From Tubulanus polymorphus (lineage: Eukaryota > Nemertea > Palaeonemertea > Tubulaniformes > Tubulanidae): a stretch of DNA of 64,000 nucleotides. Position numbers and translations under genes: made by a program. Positions 5,448 to 62,913 of the stretch are shown piece by piece (the stretch's first letter is position 1; every line of letters begins with the position of its first letter). The notes under the pieces were generated by a model that was given only the letters and a program-made list of their open reading frames with translations, did no database searches and had not been told where the DNA came from. The stretch spans positions 10,658,275-10,722,274 of the forward strand of contig NC_134032.1 in the NCBI RefSeq assembly GCF_964204645.1, given 5' to 3'.

Positions 5448-27975
<22,528 letters not shown>

Positions 27976-38500: not shown

Positions 38501-41500
38501 TTCAAATATCAAATTATGCCATACCGATAAGTTATGCAGAAATATCTGAATGGGATAGTAATTCAATTTCTATAACGCCCATTTCACTGTGAAACATTAT
38601 ATTCAACGGCAATCAATTTTCAATTGGTAATATTACCCCCAGCCTGATAGTGAATTAAGCAGCAGGCATACAATCCTACTTAACTACCATCCCCCGGCAG
38701 GGATTCGAACCTGATTGGCATCGAGACTGCAACCAACAACACGAGACCCTGGCACTTAAGCCCGAGTGCGCATGTACAGCTCATACGATGTCACTATGAG
38801 CCAATCAGAAGTCGAGTTTTATTTCAGCCCGGGTTTTTACATCTACAGTTTTGCCGTGAAATTTGCCTCAGCCATTAGACAACGAGCAAACTGATTGGTG
38901 GCGCAAGTTAATGGGCGGCAAACCTGCGCATCTACATACGTGCGCCCCGGTCTAGCGTGGCAAGTTTCTCTCCGTGGCCGAGTCTAGTATGCCATCAGTT
39001 TCGAATCCATGTCGATGAGGGATGCAAAACTACTCAGGTGAGCCGCAGAATGAAAAAAAAAGAACCAAAACGTACTTGTTACAGAAAACCCCTTGGCTTG
39101 AACTCGGGTCTTTGATCATATTCCCGGCGACGCACGCAATGGTGTTCAGATTGGTCCCACTCATTACAGAAGTTGCCAAACACGACATCATTTTCATGCT
39201 TCCTTTCATTGCACAATTCGGATCTTGCACTAATTGATGAACTGAAAACATTTCCGGTAATCAATTTATTTCAATCTATTCTTAAATTCCGTGGAAATGA
39301 ACAATAAAATGACGAATTCCAAGTTGTTAATGCTCTTTCTCAACAATGGGGAACCCGAAACGCCGGCTATCCCACCAGGCGCGACGTCAAAATTATTTCA
39401 TTTTCAATTAACTTTGAACTGGAATTTTAGACTCACTAACCCATATATCATCACAGCACCCACCAACCATACAATACTTTCATTCTTCTACTGATATATA
39501 TCGGTATAGGTTTCATTGATAATTGATACATTTTAAGAGAAAAGTTCATTCAGTTTTGATCGAAATATAGAAGAAAATCGAACGCGGAAGACCCACTATC
39601 TACTAGCGACACCTGTTGGATCCTCGCCTGCCATACGGCAAAAGGTTGAAAGCCTGTTTTGGTCGATGGCGAGTGACGTCACTAGTACAAATTCCGAGCG
39701 GTTCGAATCCCACAATACGCCAAAATCACTACGGCCGCTCTGAGCGCACATCGCATTTCAACGTTGCCGTTTAATAATTGTAAAATAACTAATAATAGTT
39801 TAAGTTTTATAAGGGTTAGAAGTACATTGTATTTACTGCTAGTGTATGTATATATCATGTACGGTTGCGAGAAATCCCTGCCCTAGTTAAACAGTAAGTC
39901 CACTAAATCTTTAAATTTTAAGTTGTTTAATGAAACTATTATTGTTTTAAATTGTTAAAACTGCAAACTATGGTTGTCGAAGATGCACCTTCTTCACATC
40001 CTTTGAAATCCTGGATAGCATCGCTGTCGGCAAAGACCTTCAGGTCTGTCTTCAACGGCACATCGCTTTGGAACAAGCGACTACTGTGTTATCAAATCTG
40101 AACTAGGTAAAAAAATGTTCCCCAAAAATAAAGACAAGTAAACGGATTAATTTAAGGTTTGAATGTTTTTGTTTATTTGTTGGTTCAAATCGAACCCTCG
40201 TCATCCTGATCTCCATAAATCTAAGAAAAGTATTCGCACACTTAAAACAATAAAATACGAGCAATAAGCAATAACATCAGACTGGAGTAAGTAACTTTAC
40301 TTAATTCACAGATACAATCCTACACAAAACAATAGCTATTCAGTGGCGGATCCACCCCTCTATTTTTACCGATGTAGCCGCAAATCTATGCGTTACTGAG
40401 TAAAAACCGAATGAAATCTTTCTATTAAGTAATGCTCAGAATGCACCTGCTTGCATCTATTTTTCCAAAAAATTTTTAGGAAGGGTCTTCGCGTTATCGG
40501 TGCTTGCTCTGGAATGGCTTACAGCCATCTGTTGTTGCTTTCATTTGCCCCCCCCCCTTCAAAATGCTGGATCCGCCCCTGAGTGCAGACAAAATGATCG
40601 ACAAAGACATACAGAACTCTAAAACAACAGTTAACAATTTAAGCAACGATAGACAAAACAGATAGCTGATTACTTTACAAACCTGTTGTCAGAACCTTAA
40701 TTATTTTTACATGATATACAGAGGACTGTTAACAATTCAACCAATGAAATTGCGATAGAGATACAGAACATACAGCTTTAACAGTAAACAATGCAACCAA
40801 TGAAATTGCGATAGAGATACAGAACATACAGCTTTAACAGTAAACCATGCAACCAATGAATTGCGATTAACTAAGACCTACGAGCAATTATCAAGTTTGA
40901 TAATTGCTCGTAGCTAAGACATACAGGACAAACAGGACTAACTTAATTGCGATAGACATACAGGACATACAGGATTAACAGTAGACAATTCAACCAACGA
41001 ATTGCGATTAACTAAGACATACAGGACTAAACCACAGGACATACAGGACTAACAGTAGACAATTCAACAACCAATGAATTGCGATTAACTAAGACATACA
41101 GGACATACAGGACTAACTTAATTGCGATAGACATACAGGACTAACAGTAAACAATGCAACCAATGAATTGCGATCGCGATCACAAAGACATACAGGACAA
41201 AACCACAGGACATACAGGACTAACAGTAGACAATTCATTAACCAATGAATTGCGATTATTTAAGAAATACAGGACTAACTTAATTGCGATAGACATACAG
41301 GACATACAGGATTAACAGTAGACAATTCAACCAACGAATTGCGATTAACTAAGACATACAGGACTAAACCACAGGACATACAGGACTAACAGTAGACAAT
41401 TCAACAACCAATGAATTGCGATTAACTAAGACATACAGGACATACAGGACTAACTTAATTGCGATAGACATACAGGACTAACAGTAAACAATGCAACCAA

Positions 41501-44500
41501 TGAATTGCGATCGCGATCACAAAGACATACAGGACAAACAGGAATAAACCACAGTAAATTGCGATAAAAAAGACATACAGGACTAACTGCAGTAAATATA
41601 TAGGGCCTTAGGAATGCAAAATTCATTCATTTTGTCATTTGTAAACATTCCACAACTTATTTCATTATGTCATTTCCAGTTTTCAAAGGGAATTTTCTTA
41701 ACTTCAGATGCCTCGAGGACATAAACATATAGAAAGATCTGTCCCAAAAAAATGTCAAGTGTCTTTCATAGTGCAATGGGCCCTGGTTTCCACGTTTATA
41801 TATCACATATAAAATTCTACAGAAACAATCAATGAATAAGTGAAAATTTACGAATAACAAACAAGACATTCAAGCAGTTGAGTAAGTTAAAATGGGACCA
41901 ATCTATATATATTATATATGGATTATACAATTTAATCAGGGACAGCCTTGAACCGAGGTTGATGTGTCCATACACTCTCTTCATACACTCTCTGAACATG
42001 CATGTATGTATACTGCTGCCAATTGATGATAAGTCAAGGATGTTGAAGTTCTAGACATGGTCAGAATCATCCAGAGACATCGGCACGCATCACAATAACT
42101 GATGATTTTGCAGTAACCTGTAACATAAAAAATCAAGCGGTAATCTATTCACAAAATATATTTTCCTGAAAGAAAAAACCTGAAATAGAGCACTATAAAC
42201 ACCAGTGCATATACATCGCTTCTTAACCTTATATATAATCGAGTAAATATATAGGTGACTAAGTGACGGTCATTATAGGCTTCTACGTTCACCATGGGAA
42301 ATGAAAATATTTCTAACGTCAGGGATTCATTCGAAACCCGATCAATAATATTCTATACAAACTATTTAGGAAATCGGGTCACAATGAAAACAAAACCACC
42401 TGATATGTTCAGGAGGAGCCTCATTGATTGGAGCACATTTCCAATGATACCATCTATGGCAATTATCACATTCAATTGAGAATGTGGACTTTTTCTTAGG
42501 ATTAGCATTGCAGTTTTTGTGGCAGACAGGGCAGGTTTCAGCAACTAACCGAGAAGGGGTTTTTTCAACTTTTGATGACAAAAGATTATCTAGTTTCAAT
42601 TTTGCTAGGTTTTGGAGGCCTGCATTTCCAGGTTGATCTATAAGAATTTCTAATTCTTTTTCAGAATTGGAATTATTGATTTCTGTAATAGGAGAACTGT
42701 TGAGATAATCATCTCTATTATTATAATCGATTACAATAGATTTTTTCTTATGATGATTATGTTCAATACGAATGTGCTTTTGAAGGAATGTTTCACTTGC
42801 ATATGAATTAATAACCCCATCTGCCCAACAAATAGCACATGAGATAGGTTTCAAAGATGAATGAGAAGTGGATATGTGCCTATCTAGTTCCCTGCGACAT
42901 GAACAAAGATATGGAGGATTTATTTTGTCTTTAATACAAAAGGAACAGACAATACTTTTTTCAAATAAAACAGACTTCGAGTCATTTTTAACAACTGGTA
43001 TTGACTTAATATCTTTTGGTTTGGTATCTTTTGATTTTTTTGGTAAGGATGATTTATTCTGACTTAAAATATCTGCTGAAAATTCGATATCATTGCCAGG
43101 ATCTGGATCAGTGGAGTCTATGGTTTCAATTTCTGATATTTTAGCTTTTTTACCTAGTTTGATAGCAGCATTTTCAACCATAGCAGAAAAGGATACACCT
43201 CTGTTAGCAGGTCTAATTATCTTTCGCCCTCCGTGTCTTGCATTCTCAGCATCTTTAGGCATTGTAACCTTAGGACAGTAAGGGTCTATCACTTCAAGTT
43301 CAGGAAGGTTTATGGCAACCTGATTGTCCTTGATTGGACCCTCAGCACGCCTATGAGCCATATTGTGAGGTTGTCGTTTGGCAGGTCGTCCGCTTATTAA
43401 CTTAATTCCACAGTGGCTTTCATTATGTAAAATACTTAGAATGTGCCCTTTCCGAGCAGCATTGATATCATTCGAGCTAGCAATGTGGGAATGATCTTTT
43501 AACTTATCAATGAGGGTAGATGAAACAGAAATATTTTGTCGAGTAAAATTGTAAGTTGGCAGAGGCTCCACAATGTGGAATTTATATGCATCAATTAAAG
43601 CCTTCGTTGTGGTTATATTGTTTTTTTGGGCAAAACAGGCAAAAAGATGTTTGCAAAAATATGGTTGTCCAATCATTATAAAAGCTTCACAAGTACATAT
43701 ACCTAGTTTCAAATTGATTAAATGGCAATTACCATCTACGTATGAAAGACAATTTTCAGGAACGATTGTAATAACGTAATTGAATAAGATACGACTGGAT
43801 ATTGAATCTAAATTTCCTATGTACCTTCGGCATTTTTTTGAAATGTCATATGAATGTTCCTCGGATATTGATACTTTATCGGGGAATCTTTCTTCTAAAA
43901 CATCAAGCTGATTGAATGTATATTGAGTATCACCATTGAAAAAATTATCATTATCTTCTAACCTATTTAAGTTCTTTCGTGAAGAACTCTTCACAACAAA
44001 CCAATTAGTTTCTTCATCATATTTTAAAATCTCATTATTCTGTAATAAATCAAAGGCTCTTTTGCAACACTTTTCTATCTTTTCAAGGTGACGTATATTC
44101 TTAACTCGTTGGTCAAGTTGCTTAAATTGGAGATTGTTCATATTTGTCGCTTTGATCTCATCATTAAAAACATTTTCAAACAGTAATCGTACAAAAGATG
44201 ATATCAGTTTATTTAGGTGTCCACTTAAGTAGACATCATCTATTTGTTTGAATTTGCGCTCAGTAATATTATCAGTTAATAGCAAAGGGTTATTTCTGTT
44301 AGATTGGTCTGACTGATAAATTGATTCAGCATTGAATGCATCAGACCAAATTTGGGAATTAAACCAATTCTTCTTTAGGTAATCAATAAATAATGTTTTT
44401 GTATCTTGCGACATAAGGTCTAAAGAAATATCATTCTCAATAAAACTAATAAATGAATTGGCTATATCAGTTCTAGAGGAAGCATCCCATGATCTCATAA

Positions 44501-47500
44501 TGCATTTGAAACCAGTTTCTAGAGGCTTGCAAAATAAGCGAAGTTCTTGATTTTCATTCATGAAGCGACGAATACACTGCAGGACATGAAAATTACATAG
44601 TACTGATTTAAGATTATTGTCAGATGCTCCTTGCTTTAGACTTGCATCTTTATCATGTTGTACAAAAGGACAAAATCTAGATGTTGATGAACATGGCTTG
44701 ATTCTGAAAAAACCATTGCCATCATTAAATATATAGAATTCAGATGGATGATTACATTTTTCGTCTTTACATGGTGTATTGGCTAGAACTAACTGGATGG
44801 TAGTTGCATGAGTAGCCCCCCCTTCATCACTACTAATTGATGCAGCAGCAATACGTCCTTCATTTTTGTTGTCTGCAAAAGTTACAAATGAAGTTTTGAA
44901 TTTCCACGAATTGAAATCATGTTTCACGTCAATACCAATGACAGATTGTCCAAAGTTGGATAAATGTTCCAGAGAACGAGGATCAGAGAGAATAATGTGA
45001 TAATTACGTTTGAGTGTGGCATCCCCTCGTTGAAATAAAAGGACAGATTCATAGTTACCCTCTAATAATTTTTCAGTATTTCTCCAATCAGAACTTAGAA
45101 TAGGTATTTCGTCTTGAGATTTCATATGTAATTTTATCGAAGATTTATCAATATATTTCAATCTATTTGAAATTTGATCTAGGGTATGGTCATGACCGGC
45201 GCCATCATTTACATTTGATACATGAAGGTTATTGTGAGCATTGGTGGCAGAAAGAACCTTCATTGCTGTGGCTTTCATCATGACTCTATTTTCATCCCAT
45301 CTATCTCTAGTAGATAAATTAGGTCGCTTTTTAATTTGTAAAGGAATATTGTCATGATATTGACCATTAAGTGGTTTGCTGAAGATTCTCCACTTGGATA
45401 AATCAGTACTAAATAATACAAGTTTTGTTGCCCAATAACACATAAAATGAGGGTGAATTAATTTTTTTGGCTCAAACTGCTGCCTTAACTTCACAGGACG
45501 ATCACGTTTATTCTTCAGCTTATAGTTGTAACAGTTGGAACAAAGTGTTTCACCATCAGCATTTTTCCTCCATTTGTTAGACATGGTAATGGAGCAATGA
45601 ATACATTGTTTATCATTTAAAACAACGTCAATTTGACATGAGGGACAATTAGTGATGTTACTGGACATATTCAACTTTGAAAGATAATATCCACATGATG
45701 ATTTACAAACTGAAGACTTTGACGAACATTTTATGAGCATTTCTGCAGCCACAAATTGAGAAGTATCCTCAACAATTGGCTCAATAAATTCAAATTTATT
45801 ATCTAATCTATGGGTTTGCCAATTCTTTTTTAATGTTAAGGAAGCTTTCATCGTTGTCTGGTTACCAACAAATGAAGGCCGCACATTCTTATGCAGACGA
45901 ACTGTTTTTGTAAAATCAAAAGTGAATCTATCGAAATAATTTTTTGTGTCAGCACCAGTCATTACTTCCCCATTTTCAACCCATTCATCACTAAGTGGAT
46001 TCTGGTTGTTGAGGTATTTCTTGATAGTGTCAATGGCTACCTGGTCATTTGTACCTTGGTCTGTACAATGAAAACTTTTATACTTCGTCTTACTGCCAGT
46101 TGAATGAAAAGCAACTTCAAGATAATGCTTTCCTCTCCTGATGCGATGGGAGATAGTAGTTTTAGAACCATTAATATGGGAAGTTAATGGTTCAGCTGAA
46201 TTTAGAGTTAATGAGGATTGAGGATTCAAAATTGAGGATGTAGATTCAGGTGTAGATTCATTATTCGAAATTGGTGTAGATTCAGGTGTAGATTTAATAG
46301 TCAAAATTGGTGCAGATTCACTATTCGAAATTGGTGTAGATTCATTAGTCAAAATTGGTGCAGATTCACTATTCGAAATTGGTGTTGATTCAGGTGTTGA
46401 TTCATTAGTCAAAATTGGTGCAGATTCACTATTCGAAATTGGTGTTGATTCATTAGTCAAAATTGCTGCAGATTCATAATTCGAAATTGGTGTAGATTCA
46501 AGTGTTGATTCATTATTCAAAATTGGTGTAGATTTAGATTTGGCTGTAGTTAAGACTGATTTGCTTTTTTTAGGGGCAATATAAGAGTCTGACATCTTTA
46601 ATTCAGAACTAGCTAGTGTATTATTTGACTCAGTTGATCGTTTATGTCTCTGTCTGCGAGATAATCGTGATATCTTAGAGAAAGTAGTACTATTAGCAGT
46701 AGGTTGAGATGACTTTGAGAAGAGTTGAGTAATATCAATTAGATGTTTCATAAGCCAATTAATCAATATCAATCTAACAAAATCAGAATAGTTAGAAATG
46801 TTCTTAAGATAAGATAATTCATTGGGAGATGAAAATACACTTGAAATATCCTTTTCATAATAGGTTGCAATGCAAGCACCAATTAATGTAGCAGGGCCAC
46901 AGACAGATGAACATGATTGGAGTGGGTAATAACTAGTACAATTATTACTACATACATGCACTGAATTTTCAGTAACAAAATGAGGATCATGGAGGTGGAT
47001 ATAAACAGGATCAGGGCAATTCAAACCTTTCAAAACAGATCTTAAATGATTTTTAAATTCCCTTGGACAATCCCATGCTAGTGTATCAGCATAACACAGT
47101 TTGTTACTTTTTGGGTAAAAAACTGCTAGTGCATAATGATTGGCAACAACATGTCCATAAGAATTTAGAAATACGAAATCGTTTTGGGTGCCAACATGCA
47201 GGAAAAAAATTAGTTTATCACAACTTATGAGTGGATTAGGACCGAATCTTTTATATAAATTTGAAACATATTTCTTAGCATCAAATGTAAGTGGCATCAT
47301 AAATGCATGAATATTACAGTACTGTTCATTTATCATAGATGCAAAAGCATTTAACACAGATCCTTCAAACCATTTTTGATTAGTCATCGTCTGAAGTTCT
47401 GATACAGATACGCTATTATTATTACCAACTGGAAATTGTTGAGAGGGTTTTAAGGAAAAGAGCATATTTGAAAATGCTTGAATCTGTTCCCAATCGACTG

Positions 47501-50500
47501 AATCAGTGGGGCTTAAAGGCTTACTATTTACCCAAAGATTCATGGCAAAAAGATCTTGTTGTTTGGTTTTAGCATAATGTAAGAAAAGAAACCTATTAAT
47601 CTGATCAATAGAATAGCAGCCTGTATCGAGTCTCACATGGATATTAATGGAAGGGTCACGGACAATCCTTGACTGCATCTGTGCTTTTATGTCCTCCAAC
47701 TGATTTTTGTGGGGCATAGTGGGGGCATCATCAGCCAAATGACATGAATTAGACATGTCACAAATTCTGAATGACGTGACCTTTGATGGCATAACAGGAG
47801 GAATTTTCAAAAACTGATAGTCATTGAGGCACATTTCTGTTGGATTGTAACTAAAATTTCTTCTACATACATGTTCATCATCAGAATCATTCTCATCACT
47901 ATCATCAATTATGATTGGTTCGATACCTCCACCACCTGTGATACTTAGCTGTTTTTTGTTTTCCATCCAGCTATCTTCCTGCATCTTTAATCTTTCTATC
48001 CTTTCTTTCGAACTATCTTCCTGCATCTTTTCTGCTTCCTCTATCGTTCCTTCCGAGAAATTGTCACAAGCCGCGTCCTTTCCTTCTTCCTCCATTGTCC
48101 GCCTGAAATACACATTATCAACTCACTTTTTTTAGACATATGAATAGATAGAGTATGAAATTACCCATATAGGCCTAACATAAAACATGGGTATCTCTGA
48201 GTCATTTGCATTAAGTCATTTAGATTTGTAGGTACTAAATTAATTGAATTATGTTGTACTTACATTTCAGTATGGTTTAAACTAACATGGTCTAGAAGAT
48301 CTTTCCAATTGGTGAATTCAACTCCGCAAAAACATGTCGAGTCAGCAGGATCCGTCTGTGGATGAATAACCTAATGTGGAAGAGCACATTAATCTGTTTT
48401 TGCTTCAACATCTAAGCAAAAATAACAAAAATGAACCCGCATCTCGCAGAAAGGGCATCAAACTTACATGTTCCACTGACTTCCTTTTTCTGTTAAATCT
48501 TTTAGTATTGTGACAACTTCTATTGTAGCATCCCTGAATATGAAAACAAAGCTTTACAGCATAAATCATACCAATACCAATGAATTTCTATAATTTCATT
48601 TCGAGAAACATATTACTCACGTTCTTAGTCTGATAAAAAGGAGTAAATAATTGAGGCTTTAAACAAATAGCAACACCAGCCACATCAATTTTAGTCATGT
48701 ACTGGAAAAAAAAGACAGATTTGTGCATGCACAGCCTTTAGGTAATTGTGAAATAAAAGTGACCAAACTAATATTAAATCATAAGTTCTTGAGATGATAT
48801 GTACCTGGTCGAATGTGAAAAAGGCTCTTTGATCTTCACAACAGAATTGTTTCCTTGTATGATGCGCAACGTCAAAACTGCTATACTGGATTGAAGGATA
48901 CAAAAAACTGTTAAAATATATCTAACTTTATAAAGATAAATCACGTACAAATCACTTAGGAAAACAACTTTACCACTATTGTTGAATCATCCCATGCTCT
49001 TGCTTGATCATCCTTCAATTTGTTTTTTGCTATCAGCTATCAATATGATTCATTAATTCAATGCAAGGATTTTGAATAAAGTGGTTTCGTATTCAAGTTA
49101 TAAAAACTAATTGCAAATCATTCATTTTCTAGGATATCAATGCTAAATGATTACCTTTCGTCGATGGACTGCTCTACTTCTTTGCATCTTTTCAATCTCA
49201 TATGGAAAGTATTGAGGGCACCTGATTAAGAATCATTCATTATTTCCAGTACAATCATAAAATTTATGTAGTTTGCATACCTGGTAATTGGATAAAATAA
49301 TGCAATTCTACGTACATTTCATCTTCATTTTTCAATAGCAGTAGTTCCATTATCCTGTTATTTATGAACTGATTTCCCTTACGGCTGGGGTGTAACAAGT
49401 CAGTCCTAGATCACAAAATTTAGAAAAAAACAAGTTAGTTTAAATCGCGAAAAAATGCACATAACCTACTGGGCTTATTAAAATTAAACGATTACTTACG
49501 GTGAAAGGAGATCTCTTGAGAAGTGAAAATCAACGAACTTTACACCAAGTGTAAAGCATTCGCGGTGCAGCATTTCATTGTAATGAAATATTTTTGTGTC
49601 AGCATCGAAACTTTAAAAAAGAAAGAAATTTAAAAATCATTACATCGATCATAAATATAGTACTTCAAGAAAAATCTATTCTTGATACTTACTCATCACA
49701 TCGAGGAAAAAGAGCTGGTACAATGATGGTCCCAGTACATTTATAGAGCAACAATCGAATTAATTCAACGTGTCTTCGCAGAACAATCTCAAGCGGGACA
49801 TCACGCGTCATATCATTTGTTCCAACATGGACGATTAGTTGTTCCACATTCAGCATCTTCACCTTTTTCAATTCTGTAATATACAACTAATCAGTAACCC
49901 AATGAAAATGAACAATATAAATCAGTACTGAACCGAGAAATTACCTTCCATCAATGTTTCAATGGTTCCTCCGGGGCACACGATCCTTGTCCATTCAAAT
50001 AAGCCTACACCATCTAGCCCAGCATACTTTAAAATGCTGTCTGCTACGAGACCAATATGCTACAAAAAAGATTATTTGTCAGTCTCAGGCCAATATCACA
50101 GGGAGGTGTGAGAGAGCACACTGGTTACTGTAAGACCCTACTACATGCAAAAGAAGTGACACATATATGTATATCAATGTGATAGAATTGATTGAAAAAA
50201 TTGTGCATAATAGTAGCTAGTGCCCAAAAATAGAACACAGTGTTATTGAAGTGAAAATTTCTAAAATCCTCTGAAGCGGTGCTTATTTGGTAGCTACATG
50301 GGTATTCTAATTGAATAAGCATAAAGATAAGCGTGCACACACAGTAGCCTATGCATAAACAAGGGCCAGTTTCACCTTCACCTAAAAGTCCTGCAGTGTG
50401 AAGACTAACTTGTTCACCTAAACCACCTCTACCAGGCTGTGGAAGGCCTAACATCAGGCACTAAATTAAAAGATTCCTCTAAATCAAATTATCTATAAAC

Positions 50501-53500
50501 ATCCTCTTAATTGCAGGCAGACTGATTCAGGGAGGGGTGCAGCCCAAAATAGGGCATACATATCAGTATCATATATAATTAAAAATCAAAAGGGCACCAG
50601 ATCATCAGAAAACATAATACCTATATTTTGGAAGTAGGCCTACAGAGAACATGTTTTGGAATATAAGCTTTTTAAAAATACTTGTTGATATTTTTAATTT
50701 TTCCTTTAAATTTCATTGCGACTTAAAAGTTTTAAGGGGTCTACACCCCTGTATACTCTCCTGATCTGCCCCTGAATTGCCACTTAACAAAATTTCTCAG
50801 CTTAATTGTTGGCTAACTAGCTCAGTGAAACTGGGACCAGACCTAATGCATACACCCTCAGTGGCCAGGGCCAGGATTAAACAGTTAGGCTACGTATATA
50901 AATAAAGGAATGAAAAGTACTTATCCTGAAATTGGTTAGGCTATCTATCTGCAACAAGAAATACATTTTCATTGACTCTGAATACAGGGAACTACCATTC
51001 TTCTGTTTCGAGGCCTTAAAATTTATTGTTTATTTTTTGTTGCTGGATTTGGAATGGTTGTTGGAATATTTAAGGCCTAATGTCTATTTATTAATTGATG
51101 AGACCTGTTTTTCTGGGATATTTTGCTTACTTTTTGGGGTACATACCTCATTTATGTCTTAACAGAATGCCAAAAATCGCGGACAACAACTGAATATCTG
51201 ATATATTTCCAGTTCTGTACCAATTAGATGGATTGGCAAAAAGACTCCTTAAGTCCAGTTTAATGAGAGAGAAAATCCTCCATTTTGTCAAATTTCTTGG
51301 ATTTGAACATTGTTACCATGCCTACGCCACCCTGATTTAGTTGTTGAGACCCCACAAGAAAAATAACTTCATTTCGTAGGCATGGTGACAATGTAAAAAT
51401 TCAAGAAATTTCACAAAATGGAGGATTTTCTCTCTCATTCAATTGGACTTAAGGAGTCTTTTTGCCAATCCATCTAATTGGTACAGAACTGGAAATATAT
51501 CGGATATTCAGTTGTTGTCCGCGATTTTTGGCATTCTGTTAAGACATAAATGAGGTATGTACCCCAAAAAGTAAGCAAAATATCCAAGAAAAACAGGTCT
51601 CATCAATTAATAAATAGACATTAGTAGGTGGTAACTGTGTACGGGCAACATAGGCCTATACCCAGTGGCATGGCAATGGCATGCCACTGGGTACCCACTA
51701 CTGCACTATAGTATACTGCCTACGGCTACTGCGACTGGTGGTTCGGTTGGCAGAAATTACTTGTTAACATGGGGGGGGGGGGGAGGGGGGAAGTAAGCGT
51801 GGATGAAGACAAATTAATTTAGCCGAGTAAGTAGCAAGCAAGTAAAGTAGTGGCAGTACAGTAGGCCTAGCGACAATGTGAGTGTGGTGGTAACGTGGCC
51901 GTGGTGGCAATAACAAGACTCCAAAACTGGCAAAAGCCAAAATTAAAAAGCCCTGCCGCCGCGCGGTCGCGACGCCTCGCCTGCACCACCGTGTACGATC
52001 CTCGCGGCGTTCACCAGTGTTACCCAGTGAGTTTTTTATAATCTTGCAATCTACCTCTTTTTTCAAACCAATATTCCCACCAACTGGTCCGGAGACAAGC
52101 TTAACACGTTCGGAAAACATGATTCACAATCTTTTAATCAACAGCCAGCAAGAATACACTTGACAGAAAATTCAAATTCAGCGGTTAACCGTTAAAAGTG
52201 AGTTGTTTAGCTGTGGGAGTAACAAAAAGGCGATCTTGATGACGTCACTAGCCATCGACCAAAACAGGCTTTCAACCTTTTGCTGCCATACGTGTAAAGA
52301 TCGAGTACCCATTATATAATTCATTATTCGAGTACATATCGATGCTTAATGAAAAAAATTATCTTTTGAATCTATCGATTCCAAAATGATTTCTCACGTG
52401 GATCGATCGCCCTGAATTGTTTTGTTCCCAATCCCAATCGAAATGTACTTACGTTGGGCCACATCGGGTAACATTTTACAATTGACGTCGATGAGCGGCG
52501 GTAGGCTAGGCGCAAATTCACTCTCAATTGTCAAATATGGACGGATTGTGGGTTGGGATAATTGCCGTAAGAGGCAGTAAGCGTGCTCGTTTGAGCAGAC
52601 AGTCCGGTATCTTCGAAACCATGACCATCAGTTTATTCCTAAAGAACAGTTATCATCGAATGGAAATTACAAATACAAATGATAATGATGATGCGACGAT
52701 GACGATAATGAAAATGCTAATAATGATAATAACAATAATAATAACGAATAAAACGATAAAGAATATTGATGATAATGATGACGATGATGATAATGTCACT
52801 TATGATGATACATCCTCCCCCGGCAGGGATTCGAACCTTGCCACGGTAAGAAACCCTGCCACACTAGACCGAGTGCGCAGCTACATGCGCAGCTTAGATG
52901 ATGTCATTGTTATGCAATGTTCAAAGTTGTCTGACAATAGAAAAACTCTTCTTGAAGTATTATATAGAAATTTTCCGGAATGCAGGAGGTCCTCAAGTGA
53001 GTGTAAATTCAGAATCATTATGTCAACTGTACAGATGGCGTATAGCCTTGGGAAATTTATAAAGGCTTCTTGCTAGATTCAGCTATGTGTATGTATATGA
53101 CATGATATGACGTTGTTTACTGAATCAGATTTTTTACTTGTACATAGCCTACTCATATGAACCGTCTCGGACTATTGAATCCTAGTCATAGTATAGAGAA
53201 ACGAGTGTATCTGCCTATCTTATCATGTTTGTACATAGTGCTATAAATTTTATCTGGTTTTGATATATACTATACATGTATTCTTCTTTGTTTTCCTCTT
53301 TATTGTAAAAAGCCAATAATGTCATTTGTATATTACGGTGCAATAAAGATTAAATTGAATTGAATTGAATTGAATTATTAGCCAATCACATATCCCGTTT
53401 TATTAAAGCCCGGGTTTCCCATTTACAGTTCTTCTGTGAAATGAAATTCACCTCAGCGATTATACAACGAGCAATCTGATTGGTGTCGCAGGTTTTCGCG

Positions 53501-60237: not shown

Positions 60238-62733
60238 TCAATCTATTCTCTGAAGGTCGCCGCTGTCTAAACTCAGTCTCATCATCAACGGATCGATTGG
60301 TTCGGGACTTTCTGCCATGAACGAAGTTGTATTTTCGGCGATCGAATCTAAAGCCGACCTTCTACGTTCTTCCTGTCGGTCGTGCACCGTCATTCGGAAA
60401 GTTTCCAATTCGAACGCGCCGCTGTGAGTGCACGTTTGATTGGCGCGTTCCGGTACGACTTCCGTTTCAGCAATACTCAAACTATCCAACACGTCCGATG
60501 CGCAGATCTTTTTCTGGGCGACTCTAAACTCCGAGCAGTAGTGGTTGAGTTTCTGATAAACTCGATGCCGTAGGCTCTCGCTTCTGAGCTGTTCGACTTG
60601 TTCGTTGTTGAAGATTTCGGCCAGTTGCGGCAGAAGGGCCGCGAACAGCGTCACCATCGACGTAACCATCGTATTGACCTCGTCCCTTTCCGGGCTGATT
60701 ATGATAATCGTCAACATGATCAGTACGATGAACAGCGTGTTGGCCATCTGGCGTATTAAAGCTCGCGCCATATTCTCCCTAAACGGATACAAAACTTTGC
60801 ACAGTTTCAGACAAATGTTACTATTGATATGCGGAATAGCGTCGTCGTAGTAGAATATCAATTTGTGTCGCCGTTCGATTTTCAACCATCTGTACGTGAA
60901 CTTTACGTTGTCGACGTCGGTCATCGTTTTCTTCGAGCGGTCGTGGTGAATGAGCTGCGAGGTGGTCACGTGATGCGCCCGGTACTGCCCGATTTCGCCG
61001 CCGGATAAGCAGTACTCGAAAACGTAGCGTTGTATTTCGGTGTATCGCTTCGACAATTTACCGAACGCTCGATGGGCGTAGTAGAAAAATATAGCGCTGC
61101 CGGTGAGATAGGGCGCTACGATATCGACGTTGATAACGATACCGCTAACCACGTAAACGGGTATGTGGAAAAGGGTGAAGACAATCGGGTACGTGCCGAT
61201 AACCACGACAACAAGCGCGAACACCAGTAGATTATGCAAAAACCGCTCGATAGATGGCAGTTTATGAACGACGTTTTCGTGTAGAAAAGCGTTTTTGATC
61301 CAACGCAAGGTGAATTTACGAATGGTCGAACTTTCGAAAAGCCACCAACAAATCAGCAACATCGTAGAAATAGCGACGAGCACGATCATCAACACGCCTA
61401 CTTTAAAGGGCCACAGGTCCGAACGAGTGTAGATCCAAGCTATCGGTATATTCAGCAAGTTGAAGACTATCTTTTCAGTCGTGTCCAGTTGTTTGGTCGT
61501 GTATCCGTAGGCCACCGAACCGGAATGATAAAGCACCACCGTCGTAATGATGAAAATATACTGACATAATATCAGCAAAGTTACTCTGAGTTTTTTCCGG
61601 TTAATATTCGGCAGCTGCATGAACATAGTCAACGATACGGGCGTAGAGTACGACATCAGCTCGTCCGGGTTGGTTAGTATGTAGGCGTCGGAAAGAAGGC
61701 CGCCAGTCGGCTCCGGCTCGACGCGAAAATGGTCGAATTTGATTCGTCGATTGGTGAACTCGGCGGTGAGAACCTCGGTGAATTTCCACGGATGGAAGCT
61801 CGGCCAGGCGATCGCCATGACGATGGCGAAAATGGGCAGAAGAACTCCGCAGAAAAAGAGCACCAATCGTTTGGCGCGATAACTGCGACTGGTCATGTGC
61901 GCCGGGCACAAGGATGAACTATCATCCAGCACTCCTTCTAAACAACAATCCAACCCGATCCCGACCGTTTCACCCGTTAACCACGTGTGTGTAAATGCGC
62001 TTCTGCAGATAAAATCGTCAGACCCGAGATCGAAAGTGACATTGGGCACGGTGTGAAACGTGTTCGGTTTCCTAGTAAACCGGCGTAGAAGGCGATGGAT
62101 CATCAAGTTGAAACATTTCGGGCCCAATTTCGACTCACACGAACTCGGTCGACTCGAGATGTTCAAAGTCTGTTCTTCGATGCGCAAACTGAGTAAACCG
62201 AGAGACAATAAGTGGTAATCAACGGGCATGTTCAGAACGAATTGACCAGCGCTCGAAACCCACGACCACCAGAACGGATTGAAAGTCGTTTTGTCGACTG
62301 CCGCCAACGACTCGATCGACACGTTCAAACCTGATAATCTGAATTTGACGACGTGCGAGTGGTCTTTCCGAAATCTGCGGAATTTAAGAACTTGGTTCTG
62401 TTTATCGTCGATCGTCAAGCGACATCGCATCAGTTCATCGCTACACGTGGATGCGTCTGGATAGGTTACCCTCAGTTTTCGCAGCACCGAATCAACGTTG
62501 ACTTTAGTTTTGGTAACCGGTGCGGCAGGCAGCGGCGTCGTCGGGACTGGAGTAGTAGCCGACGCATTCGCAGTAGTCCGGACGACGACCGGGCGTAGAG
62601 AGGAAACCGTGTCCGATGTGACCGGTCCGACAGTTGTCCGCGACTCGATTGTCGTAGTATTGTTAGTCCGGTTCGCGGTCATCGACACCGATTGGCAGAC
62701 GATCAAAATGCAAAATACGCCTCGCGTGAACAT
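60238..62733 (-). CDS. Uncharacterised multi-pass membrane protein, 831 residues
   Basis: A single uninterrupted coding exon. The N-terminal signal peptide (MFTRGVFCILIVCQSVSM) is followed by a Thr/Ser/Pro-rich stretch with many N-x-T sites (about 20-75). Then comes a soluble, cysteine-containing ectodomain to about residue 285. Hydrophobic segments lie at about 288-312, 380-405, 443-465, 496-520, 522-553, 661-680 and 688-707, so roughly six to eight membrane passes. A basic loop (about 560-650) separates the last two segments, and a polar tail of about 120 residues follows. Codon use is GC-rich relative to the flanks, as expected of a conserved gene. The ATG at 62733 lies just downstream of an acceptor (TAATTTTCAG), so a 5' UTR intron is likely. 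I do not recognise the family. It could be a receptor, channel or transporter, and the sequence does not decide which. Confidence 0.8.
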   Translation of the reverse strand: MFTRGVFCILIVCQSVSMTANRTNNTTTIESRTTVGPVTSDTVSSLRPVVVRTTANASATTPVPTTPLPAAPVTKTKVNVDSVLRKLRVTYPDASTCSDELMRCRLTIDDKQNQVLKFRRFRKDHSHVVKFRLSGLNVSIESLAAVDKTTFNPFWWSWVSSAGQFVLNMPVDYHLLSLGLLSLRIEEQTLNISSRPSSCESKLGPKCFNLMIHRLLRRFTRKPNTFHTVPNVTFDLGSDDFICRSAFTHTWLTGETVGIGLDCCLEGVLDDSSSLCPAHMTSRSYRAKRLVLFFCGVLLPIFAIVMAIAWPSFHPWKFTEVLTAEFTNRRIKFDHFRVEPEPTGGLLSDAYILTNPDELMSYSTPVSLTMFMQLPNINRKKLRVTLLILCQYIFIITTVVLYHSGSVAYGYTTKQLDTTEKIVFNLLNIPIAWIYTRSDLWPFKVGVLMIVLVAISTMLLICWWLFESSTIRKFTLRWIKNAFLHENVVHKLPSIERFLHNLLVFALVVVVIGTYPIVFTLFHIPVYVVSGIVINVDIVAPYLTGSAIFFYYAHRAFGKLSKRYTEIQRYVFEYCLSGGEIGQYRAHHVTTSQLIHHDRSKKTMTDVDNVKFTYRWLKIERRHKLIFYYDDAIPHINSNICLKLCKVLYPFRENMARALIRQMANTLFIVLIMLTIIIISPERDEVNTMVTSMVTLFAALLPQLAEIFNNEQVEQLRSESLRHRVYQKLNHYCSEFRVAQKKICASDVLDSLSIAETEVVPERANQTCTHSGAFELETFRMTVHDRQEERRRSALDSIAENTTSFMAESPEPIDPLMMRLSLDSGDLQRID

Positions 62734-62913
62734 CTCAGTCCGGTATAGATCTGAAAATTAGGAGAAATATTACGAATATACAAACAATGAAAGCAAATTT
62801 TTACTAATAATGCAACCTTGTTCCCTTTCATCGATAACTTGATTTTTAGTTTTATGAAAAAAGCGTCGTAGAGATCATTAAACAAAAGGTGGAAAAACAG
62901 CGAGTATACTCAC

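Follow-up and report, generated by a model that had tools for sequence, protein, structure and literature searches.

Terminal inverted repeats (TIRs) are commonly long in Mutator-like elements (MULEs) and sometimes absent, and the RNase H-like DDE core of MULE transposases carries a CxxH motif between its second aspartate (D2) and its glutamate (E). Members of the superfamily produce target-site duplications (TSDs) of 8-11 bp, and the Rehavkus branch is described as combining TSDs of 9 bp and TIRs between 26 and 400 bp long with a PHD finger and with a minisatellite located ahead of the 3' TIR (PMC6446971). Rehavkus-1_TC (Tribolium; Repbase group) spans 9.5 kb (PMC10218199), and complete arthropod MULEs reach up to 9,972 bp (PMC13359780). 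Ulp1 proteases are carried by Mutator elements of hydra and lancelet, by plant MULEs and by Ginger1, one family of which also has a PHD finger on its transposase (PMC2836005), and SGNH hydrolases by ORF1 of CR1/ZfL2-1 (PMC3905857) and by the fish Helitron-borne texim (PMC4021074). Here we describe an element in a 64,000-nucleotide window of the palaeonemertean ribbon worm Tubulanus polymorphus (NC_134032.1, 10,658,275 to 10,722,274; positions below are those of the window), probably a young, autonomous DNA transposon that moves by cut-and-paste and belongs to the MULE/IS256 branch, with Rehavkus its nearest likeness.

All four of the Rehavkus traits named above recur at this locus (Table 1): a 9-bp TSD, a 44-bp TIR, a PHD finger (24.2 bits vs a cut-off of 24) and a minisatellite. 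The TIRs pair at 43 of 44 positions and exact copies of TGCCATACG stand at both element borders, confirming what a preliminary description of the window had reported as 44-bp TIRs with one mismatch and a perfect 9-bp duplication. The element differs from Rehavkus in its size, about 12.1 kb, and in its SGNH, Ulp1-like and GATA-like domains, which go unmentioned in the excerpted Rehavkus descriptions (PMC6446971, PMC10218199). It is best called Rehavkus-like and not a proven member, the likeness being drawn from published descriptions; in layout it is closer to the Rehavkus branch than to a typical MULE, and the earlier judgement that its size and domain content lie beyond a typical MULE is well supported.

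Searching the 268-Mb genome of T. polymorphus with the left 163 bp and the right 184 bp of the element gave at least 32 left-end matches of at least 115 bp (40 of 66 candidates scored) and at least 31 right-end matches of at least 170 bp (40 of 70 candidates scored), the window included in each. Further copies with the same termini, which the preliminary description had proposed to seek in other assemblies of the species, are present in this genome, and the element is a multicopy family of about 30 copies. Chance was considered as the origin of the TIRs and TSD, and is ruled out by these copies, many of which have a 9-bp TSD of their own. Among 27 further loci fetched for comparison (the window counted apart), 19 have a perfect 9-bp TSD; the duplication is shifted by one base at C1_1591 and matches in part at C4_18602 (7/9), C2_12921 (6/9), C1_25465 (3/9) and C4_12474 (3/9, the right end probably mis-paired), no boundary pair was found at C1_25277 and C6_13251, and the TSD is untestable at C13, where the contig starts 6 bp ahead of the element. 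No clear target consensus emerges among 21 TSDs, the window's and the offset one included.

Copy lengths range from 2.1 to 12.4 kb (12.6 kb in the window), apart from one 17.3-kb copy whose right part is broken by about 5.5 kb. The uninterrupted 1918-aa frame is kept in six of the 27 loci and in the window, giving seven intact copies, and the six others differ from the window by 1, 1, 7, 8, 8 and 8 of 5757 bases. The two closest are the C13 copy and C6_9940, the latter on another chromosome-size contig and flanked by its own TSD, AGTTTAAAG. The earlier view of a recent, near-intact insertion is well supported. An internally deleted 6.86-kb form occurs at three loci, and shortened at a fourth, with identical breakpoints; a 4.77-4.79-kb form, about 2.3 kb of which is unmatched to the window's element in that comparison, occurs at four loci, again with identical breakpoints. 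Both are without most of the gene, and therefore probably moved in trans. As a side observation, the 244-kb contig C13 starts 6 bp from its element copy, meaning that the assembly breaks at the element.

The preliminary description's intact 12.6-kb unit is real and near-intact, but this length counts a nested miniature inverted-repeat transposable element (MITE) of 542 bp, without which the element proper is about 12.1 kb, as in the C13 copy (12,103 bp). The MITE is a palindrome with 250-bp arms. At that exact place it is absent from 15 of the 27 loci, including all six other frame-intact copies, and present in 4, the place being uncovered in 8, and its sequence is dispersed at many other genomic places (329 candidates, 40 scored); the inverted arms were accordingly rejected as a part of the element. 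The MITE, the SGNH exons and the minisatellite had all gone unmentioned in the preliminary description.

The window's left flank is a dispersed repeat, and three of its paralogs were fetched for an empty-site comparison. In two of these the match continues through a single TGCCATACG into TGGAA, where the window's right flank reads TGTAA; L055 has one TGCCATACG copy and then TGGAA, L054 carries TGCCATAAG in place of TGCCATACG, and in the third paralog the match ends within the TSD. The paralogs thus appear to lend an empty site modest support, modest because only 5 bases lie beyond the joint. Separately, the listed copies of this repeat (39386-39637) on C6 (0.66-1.74 Mb) are often 31-35 kb apart or about twice that, a spacing that resembles tandem duplication of large segments, and others lie at C3:0.41-1.32 Mb (40 of 665 candidates scored).

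Within the element, the long uninterrupted transposase frame noticed earlier runs without a stop from 48122 to 42366 on the reverse strand (1918 aa). Ten predicted exons (50059-48264) join it through GT-AG junctions of matching phase, for 2232 codons, and the last three junctions of this chain are those of P0001, the NCBI protein LOC141914437 isoform X2 of T. polymorphus, which agrees with the spliced frame of the window in 1994 of 1995 residues. A predicted in-phase first exon (52120-52055) would extend the product to 2254 aa and 12 exons. Each of the six other frame-intact copies has the exon chain open, and the two frame-broken copies tested have it interrupted; exon 2 begins with H in the window and with R in the 8 other copies checked. 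One 12-exon gene that starts just inside the right TIR is thus predicted from sequence to encode a 2254-aa protein, exons 1-8 being by prediction, in the order SGNH hydrolase, C2H2, Ulp1-like protease, GATA-like finger, DDE core, SWIM, C2H2-like pair, PHD. Each TIR ends inwardly (39674-39681, 52240-52247) in the perfect palindrome TGACGTCA, which we take to be a cAMP-response-element-like site; the window holds 3 such sites vs 0.93 expected (3 or more in 8 of 100 shuffles), and the one in the right TIR lies about 120 bp ahead of the predicted start codon.

The core residues given earlier as D1062, D1154/1156, CNFH and E1285 are D1065, D1157/1159, C1176-H1179 and E1288 in stop-to-stop numbering. 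Apart from P0001, protein searches turned up nine proteins: two of Patella caerulea, one each of Oratosquilla oratoria and Nymphon striatum, four ENA entries and one JGI entry. An alignment of nine proteins shows D1, CxxH and E invariant (9/9) and D2 kept in 8/9, the exception being the Oratosquilla protein P0008, which has G there and may be decayed. The SWIM profile matches the relatives P0003 and P0009 below its cut-off, and the relatives' GATA-like profile matches GATA-1/GATA-3 structures at E ~1e-11, in an alignment outside of which the window's own finger falls. Foldseek fills its five best places for the DDE core with the ISCth4 transposase, presumably of the IS256 family (best E 4e-4, prob 0.99), using a low-confidence model (pLDDT 46; TM-scores 0.19-0.23 by target); the ISCth4 chains, of about 350-400 residues, are without such accessory domains.

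MULE affiliation is therefore supported by the TSD (9 bp in 19/27 loci plus the window), by the D..D..CxxH..E layout and by the fold obtained from that low-confidence model, alongside the 44-bp TIRs. The affiliation proposed in the preliminary description is supported in these respects, to which the SWIM motif after E can be added. The profile evidence that it called for is weak: PF10551, the Pfam MULE profile, has no match to the protein or to any of the seven intact copies (56 other places in the genome match), ZSWIM1-3_RNaseH-like stays below its cut-off (E 0.031-0.047, in 4/9 proteins), and alignment by hhalign with one ordinary MULE from this genome yields E 0.05-0.09 and probabilities of ~1%. 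The genome is rich in ordinary PF10551 MULEs, several of which score identically at two places.

In the Ulp1-like domain, the His-Asp-Gln-Cys residues of the Ulp1/SENP (CE) clan (H329, D346, Q402, C408) are invariant in 4/4 and 8/8 aligned proteins, and Foldseek matches the fold to Ulp1/SENP with prob 1.00, and a match to 1euv has E 0.0034; by sequence the domain has no Pfam match. The SGNH assignment comes from PF13472, which matches residues 28-148 of the spliced protein above its cut-off (E 3.3e-9) and holds GTND and DLLH; block I (ADS) precedes this match and was assigned by eye. We take PDB 4c1b to be the CR1/ZfL2-1 ORF1 esterase. Ulp1 sits on MULE-type elements of hydra, lancelet and plants as it does here, with SGNH unmentioned in the excerpted account (PMC2836005), and CR1/ZfL2-1 and texim, as excerpted, likewise place SGNH on a mobile element, but as a retrotransposon ORF1 or a Helitron-associated gene, unattached to a DDE transposase. 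An SGNH hydrolase joined to a cut-and-paste DDE transposase was not found in searches of open-licence papers; Ulp1 in animal MULEs is already published.

Several alternative accounts have to be weighed against this interpretation. The core might belong to another DDE superfamily, such as hAT or the integrase-like Ginger group, and merely resemble a MULE, as could be argued from the missing PF10551 match, from VIA-align, which places retroviral integrases and Hermes above ISCth4 (with Z differences near or under 1), and from the Ginger1 family that also combines Ulp1 with PHD (PMC2836005). Integrase cores do appear among the fold matches of the DDE core, and no integrase family appears among the Pfam matches; Ginger1, as excerpted, has a Gypsy-integrase core, a zinc finger, a GPY/F motif and a C-terminal protease, whereas the protease here is N-terminal to the core. 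We consider another superfamily very unlikely given that many copies have a 9-bp TSD, that CxxH lies between D2 and E and SWIM follows E, that ISCth4 takes Foldseek's five best places, and that four of nine proteins show weak ZSWIM1-3 RNase H-like matches. The young element is possibly active; alternatively, its copies are no longer mobile, the burst having ended or been silenced and similarity having been kept by recency or gene conversion. The retention of the frame in only six of the 27 fetched loci and the window would fit such an end, which we regard as a serious if less probable prospect, given two other intact copies only 1/5757 from the window, one of them (C6_9940) on another contig with its own TSD.

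It is also conceivable that the SGNH exons belong to a gene of their own or to a passenger (a captured host or LINE esterase) that is no part of the transposase protein and plays no role in transposition. The NCBI isoform X2 starts downstream of them, a protein-database search with the SGNH part (proteins 0.55-1.75x query length) found only P0001, and the exons of the diverged copy L052 are no better kept than its introns. In the sister element L049, Ulp1-like, DDE, SWIM-region and PHD parts are present but interrupted by stops, and a C2H2-like stretch resembling exon 11 lies at the expected place upstream (E 2.5 alone); within the 3.8 kb upstream, no SGNH match rises above chance. Since none was detected in L049, the SGNH domain may have been added later, in the young family. 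Diverged SGNH-like pieces at C7:9333841-9334267 (48-59% identity) have no transposase core match near by (C7:9334049); another such piece lies at C4:9937172-9937456 (32%), with a core match (44%) about 17 kb away on the same strand. In the window and all six other intact copies, however, exons 2-12 join into a single frame across GT-AG junctions whose phases match, and the Pfam match (28-148) spans exon junctions, so that we think a separate SGNH gene rather unlikely. The pN/pS ratios of exons 2-11 (0.42 vs L050 and 0.53 vs L052, both diverged; small counts) point the same way, but this evidence of constraint is weak because of the exon and intron mismatch rates, 53/741 vs 62/644 bases in L050 and 36/746 vs 29/644 in L052. 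Selection figures for C4_18602 are 0.57 for the SGNH exons and 0.72 for exon 12 (small counts and light weight; three of seven copies mapped).

For a Rehavkus-like element with one composite protein, the TIRs, duplications and DDE core would imply cut-and-paste transposition with a 9-bp stagger: the duplications are seen directly and the chemistry is conjectured. The zinc fingers may bind the element ends, D1065, D1157 and E1288 would cut these ends and join them at a target staggered by 9 bp, and the PHD finger might read chromatin and steer target choice. The Ulp1-like domain could, close to the transposition complex, strip off SUMO or a mark related to it, or it could cleave its own long polyprotein; for the Ulp1/OTU domains that transposons carry, a SUMO-related role has been proposed (PMC2836005, as excerpted). 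Least certain, the SGNH domain might by analogy anchor or release the protein at membranes or lipids, membrane action having been suggested for the LINE esterase (PMC3905857, as excerpted). That the transposon has incorporated into its transposase an esterase acting on membranes or lipids together with a SUMO-type protease, which would give it Gag-like or membrane-linked steps (localisation, nuclear entry, perhaps cell-to-cell passage), is a reading we hold improbable. Ulp1/OTU proteases and SGNH esterases turn up on transposons time and again, and here one transposase seems to bear both. Should it prove active, the element would offer a candidate for a live MULE-type transposon in an animal, its frames long and unbroken and its near-identical copies numerous, and so a setting for testing the roles of Ulp1, PHD and SGNH in transposition.

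Older sister sequences in this genome have ~40-59% core identity, and one of them (C6:15725042-15725998, core 59% identical) has a 1787-aa open frame. The limpet, mantis shrimp and sea spider relatives suggest that a group of giant MULE-like elements exists among marine invertebrates.

Table 1. Features of the element and its borders, in window coordinates.
Feature	Position	Strand	Basis
Left target-site duplication TGCCATACG	39629..39637	.	read from sequence
Left 44-bp TIR, 3' side of gene, inner end TGACGTCA	39638..39681	+	repeat analysis and genomic left-end matches
Minisatellite-like array between gene 3' end (stop codon) and left TIR	40596..41596	.	repeat analysis
Exon 12: Ulp1-like, GATA-like, DDE, SWIM, C2H2-like pair (by eye), PHD	42366..48102	-	agrees with P0001
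PHD finger, residues 1864-1914	42381..42533	-	PF00628, E 3.5e-5, 24.2 bits vs cut-off 24
SWIM-type CxC..CxH motif	43647..43697	-	invariant cysteines and histidine
DDE core: D1065 (44928-44930), D1157 (44652-44654), CNFH (44586-44597), E1288 (44259-44261)	44259..44930	-	
GATA-like zinc finger	45525..45605	-	PF00320, E 0.0026, below cut-off
Coding tandem repeat in linker, 24/48/60/108-bp periods	46249..46534	-	repeat analysis
Ulp1/SENP-like protease, H329 D346 Q402 C408	46743..47435	-	conserved residues and fold
Exon 11, C2H2-like finger	48264..48370	-	junctions agree with P0001
Exon 10	48468..48533	-	junctions agree with P0001
Exon 9, P0001 starts at internal Met	48621..48701	-	comparison with P0001
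Exon 8, predicted	48805..48885	-	splice chain
Exon 7, predicted	48974..49036	-	splice chain
Exon 6, predicted	49155..49221	-	splice chain
Exon 5, predicted, SGNH block V (DLLH)	49316..49405	-	splice chain and Pfam
Exon 4, predicted, SGNH	49500..49610	-	splice chain and Pfam
Exon 3, predicted, SGNH block III (GTND)	49693..49873	-	splice chain and Pfam
Exon 2, predicted, SGNH block I (ADS, by eye)	49945..50059	-	splice chain
542-bp palindromic MITE in predicted intron 1, TA both sides, separate insertion	51080..51621	.	repeat analysis, locus comparison, genome search
Exon 1, predicted, start codon	52055..52120	-	inference; ATG and in-phase GT donor kept in 8/8 other copies checked
Right 44-bp TIR, 5' side of gene, inner end TGACGTCA	52240..52283	-	repeat analysis and genomic right-end matches
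Right target-site duplication TGCCATACG	52284..52292	.	read from sequence

Rfam has no match in the window at gathering scores. Elsewhere in the window, an 839-aa uninterrupted frame (60238-62757, reverse strand) looks by eye like a multi-pass membrane protein, with no Pfam match at E 0.1, and a long TA-type microsatellite (11942-12464, reverse strand) reads YIYIYI in two frames.

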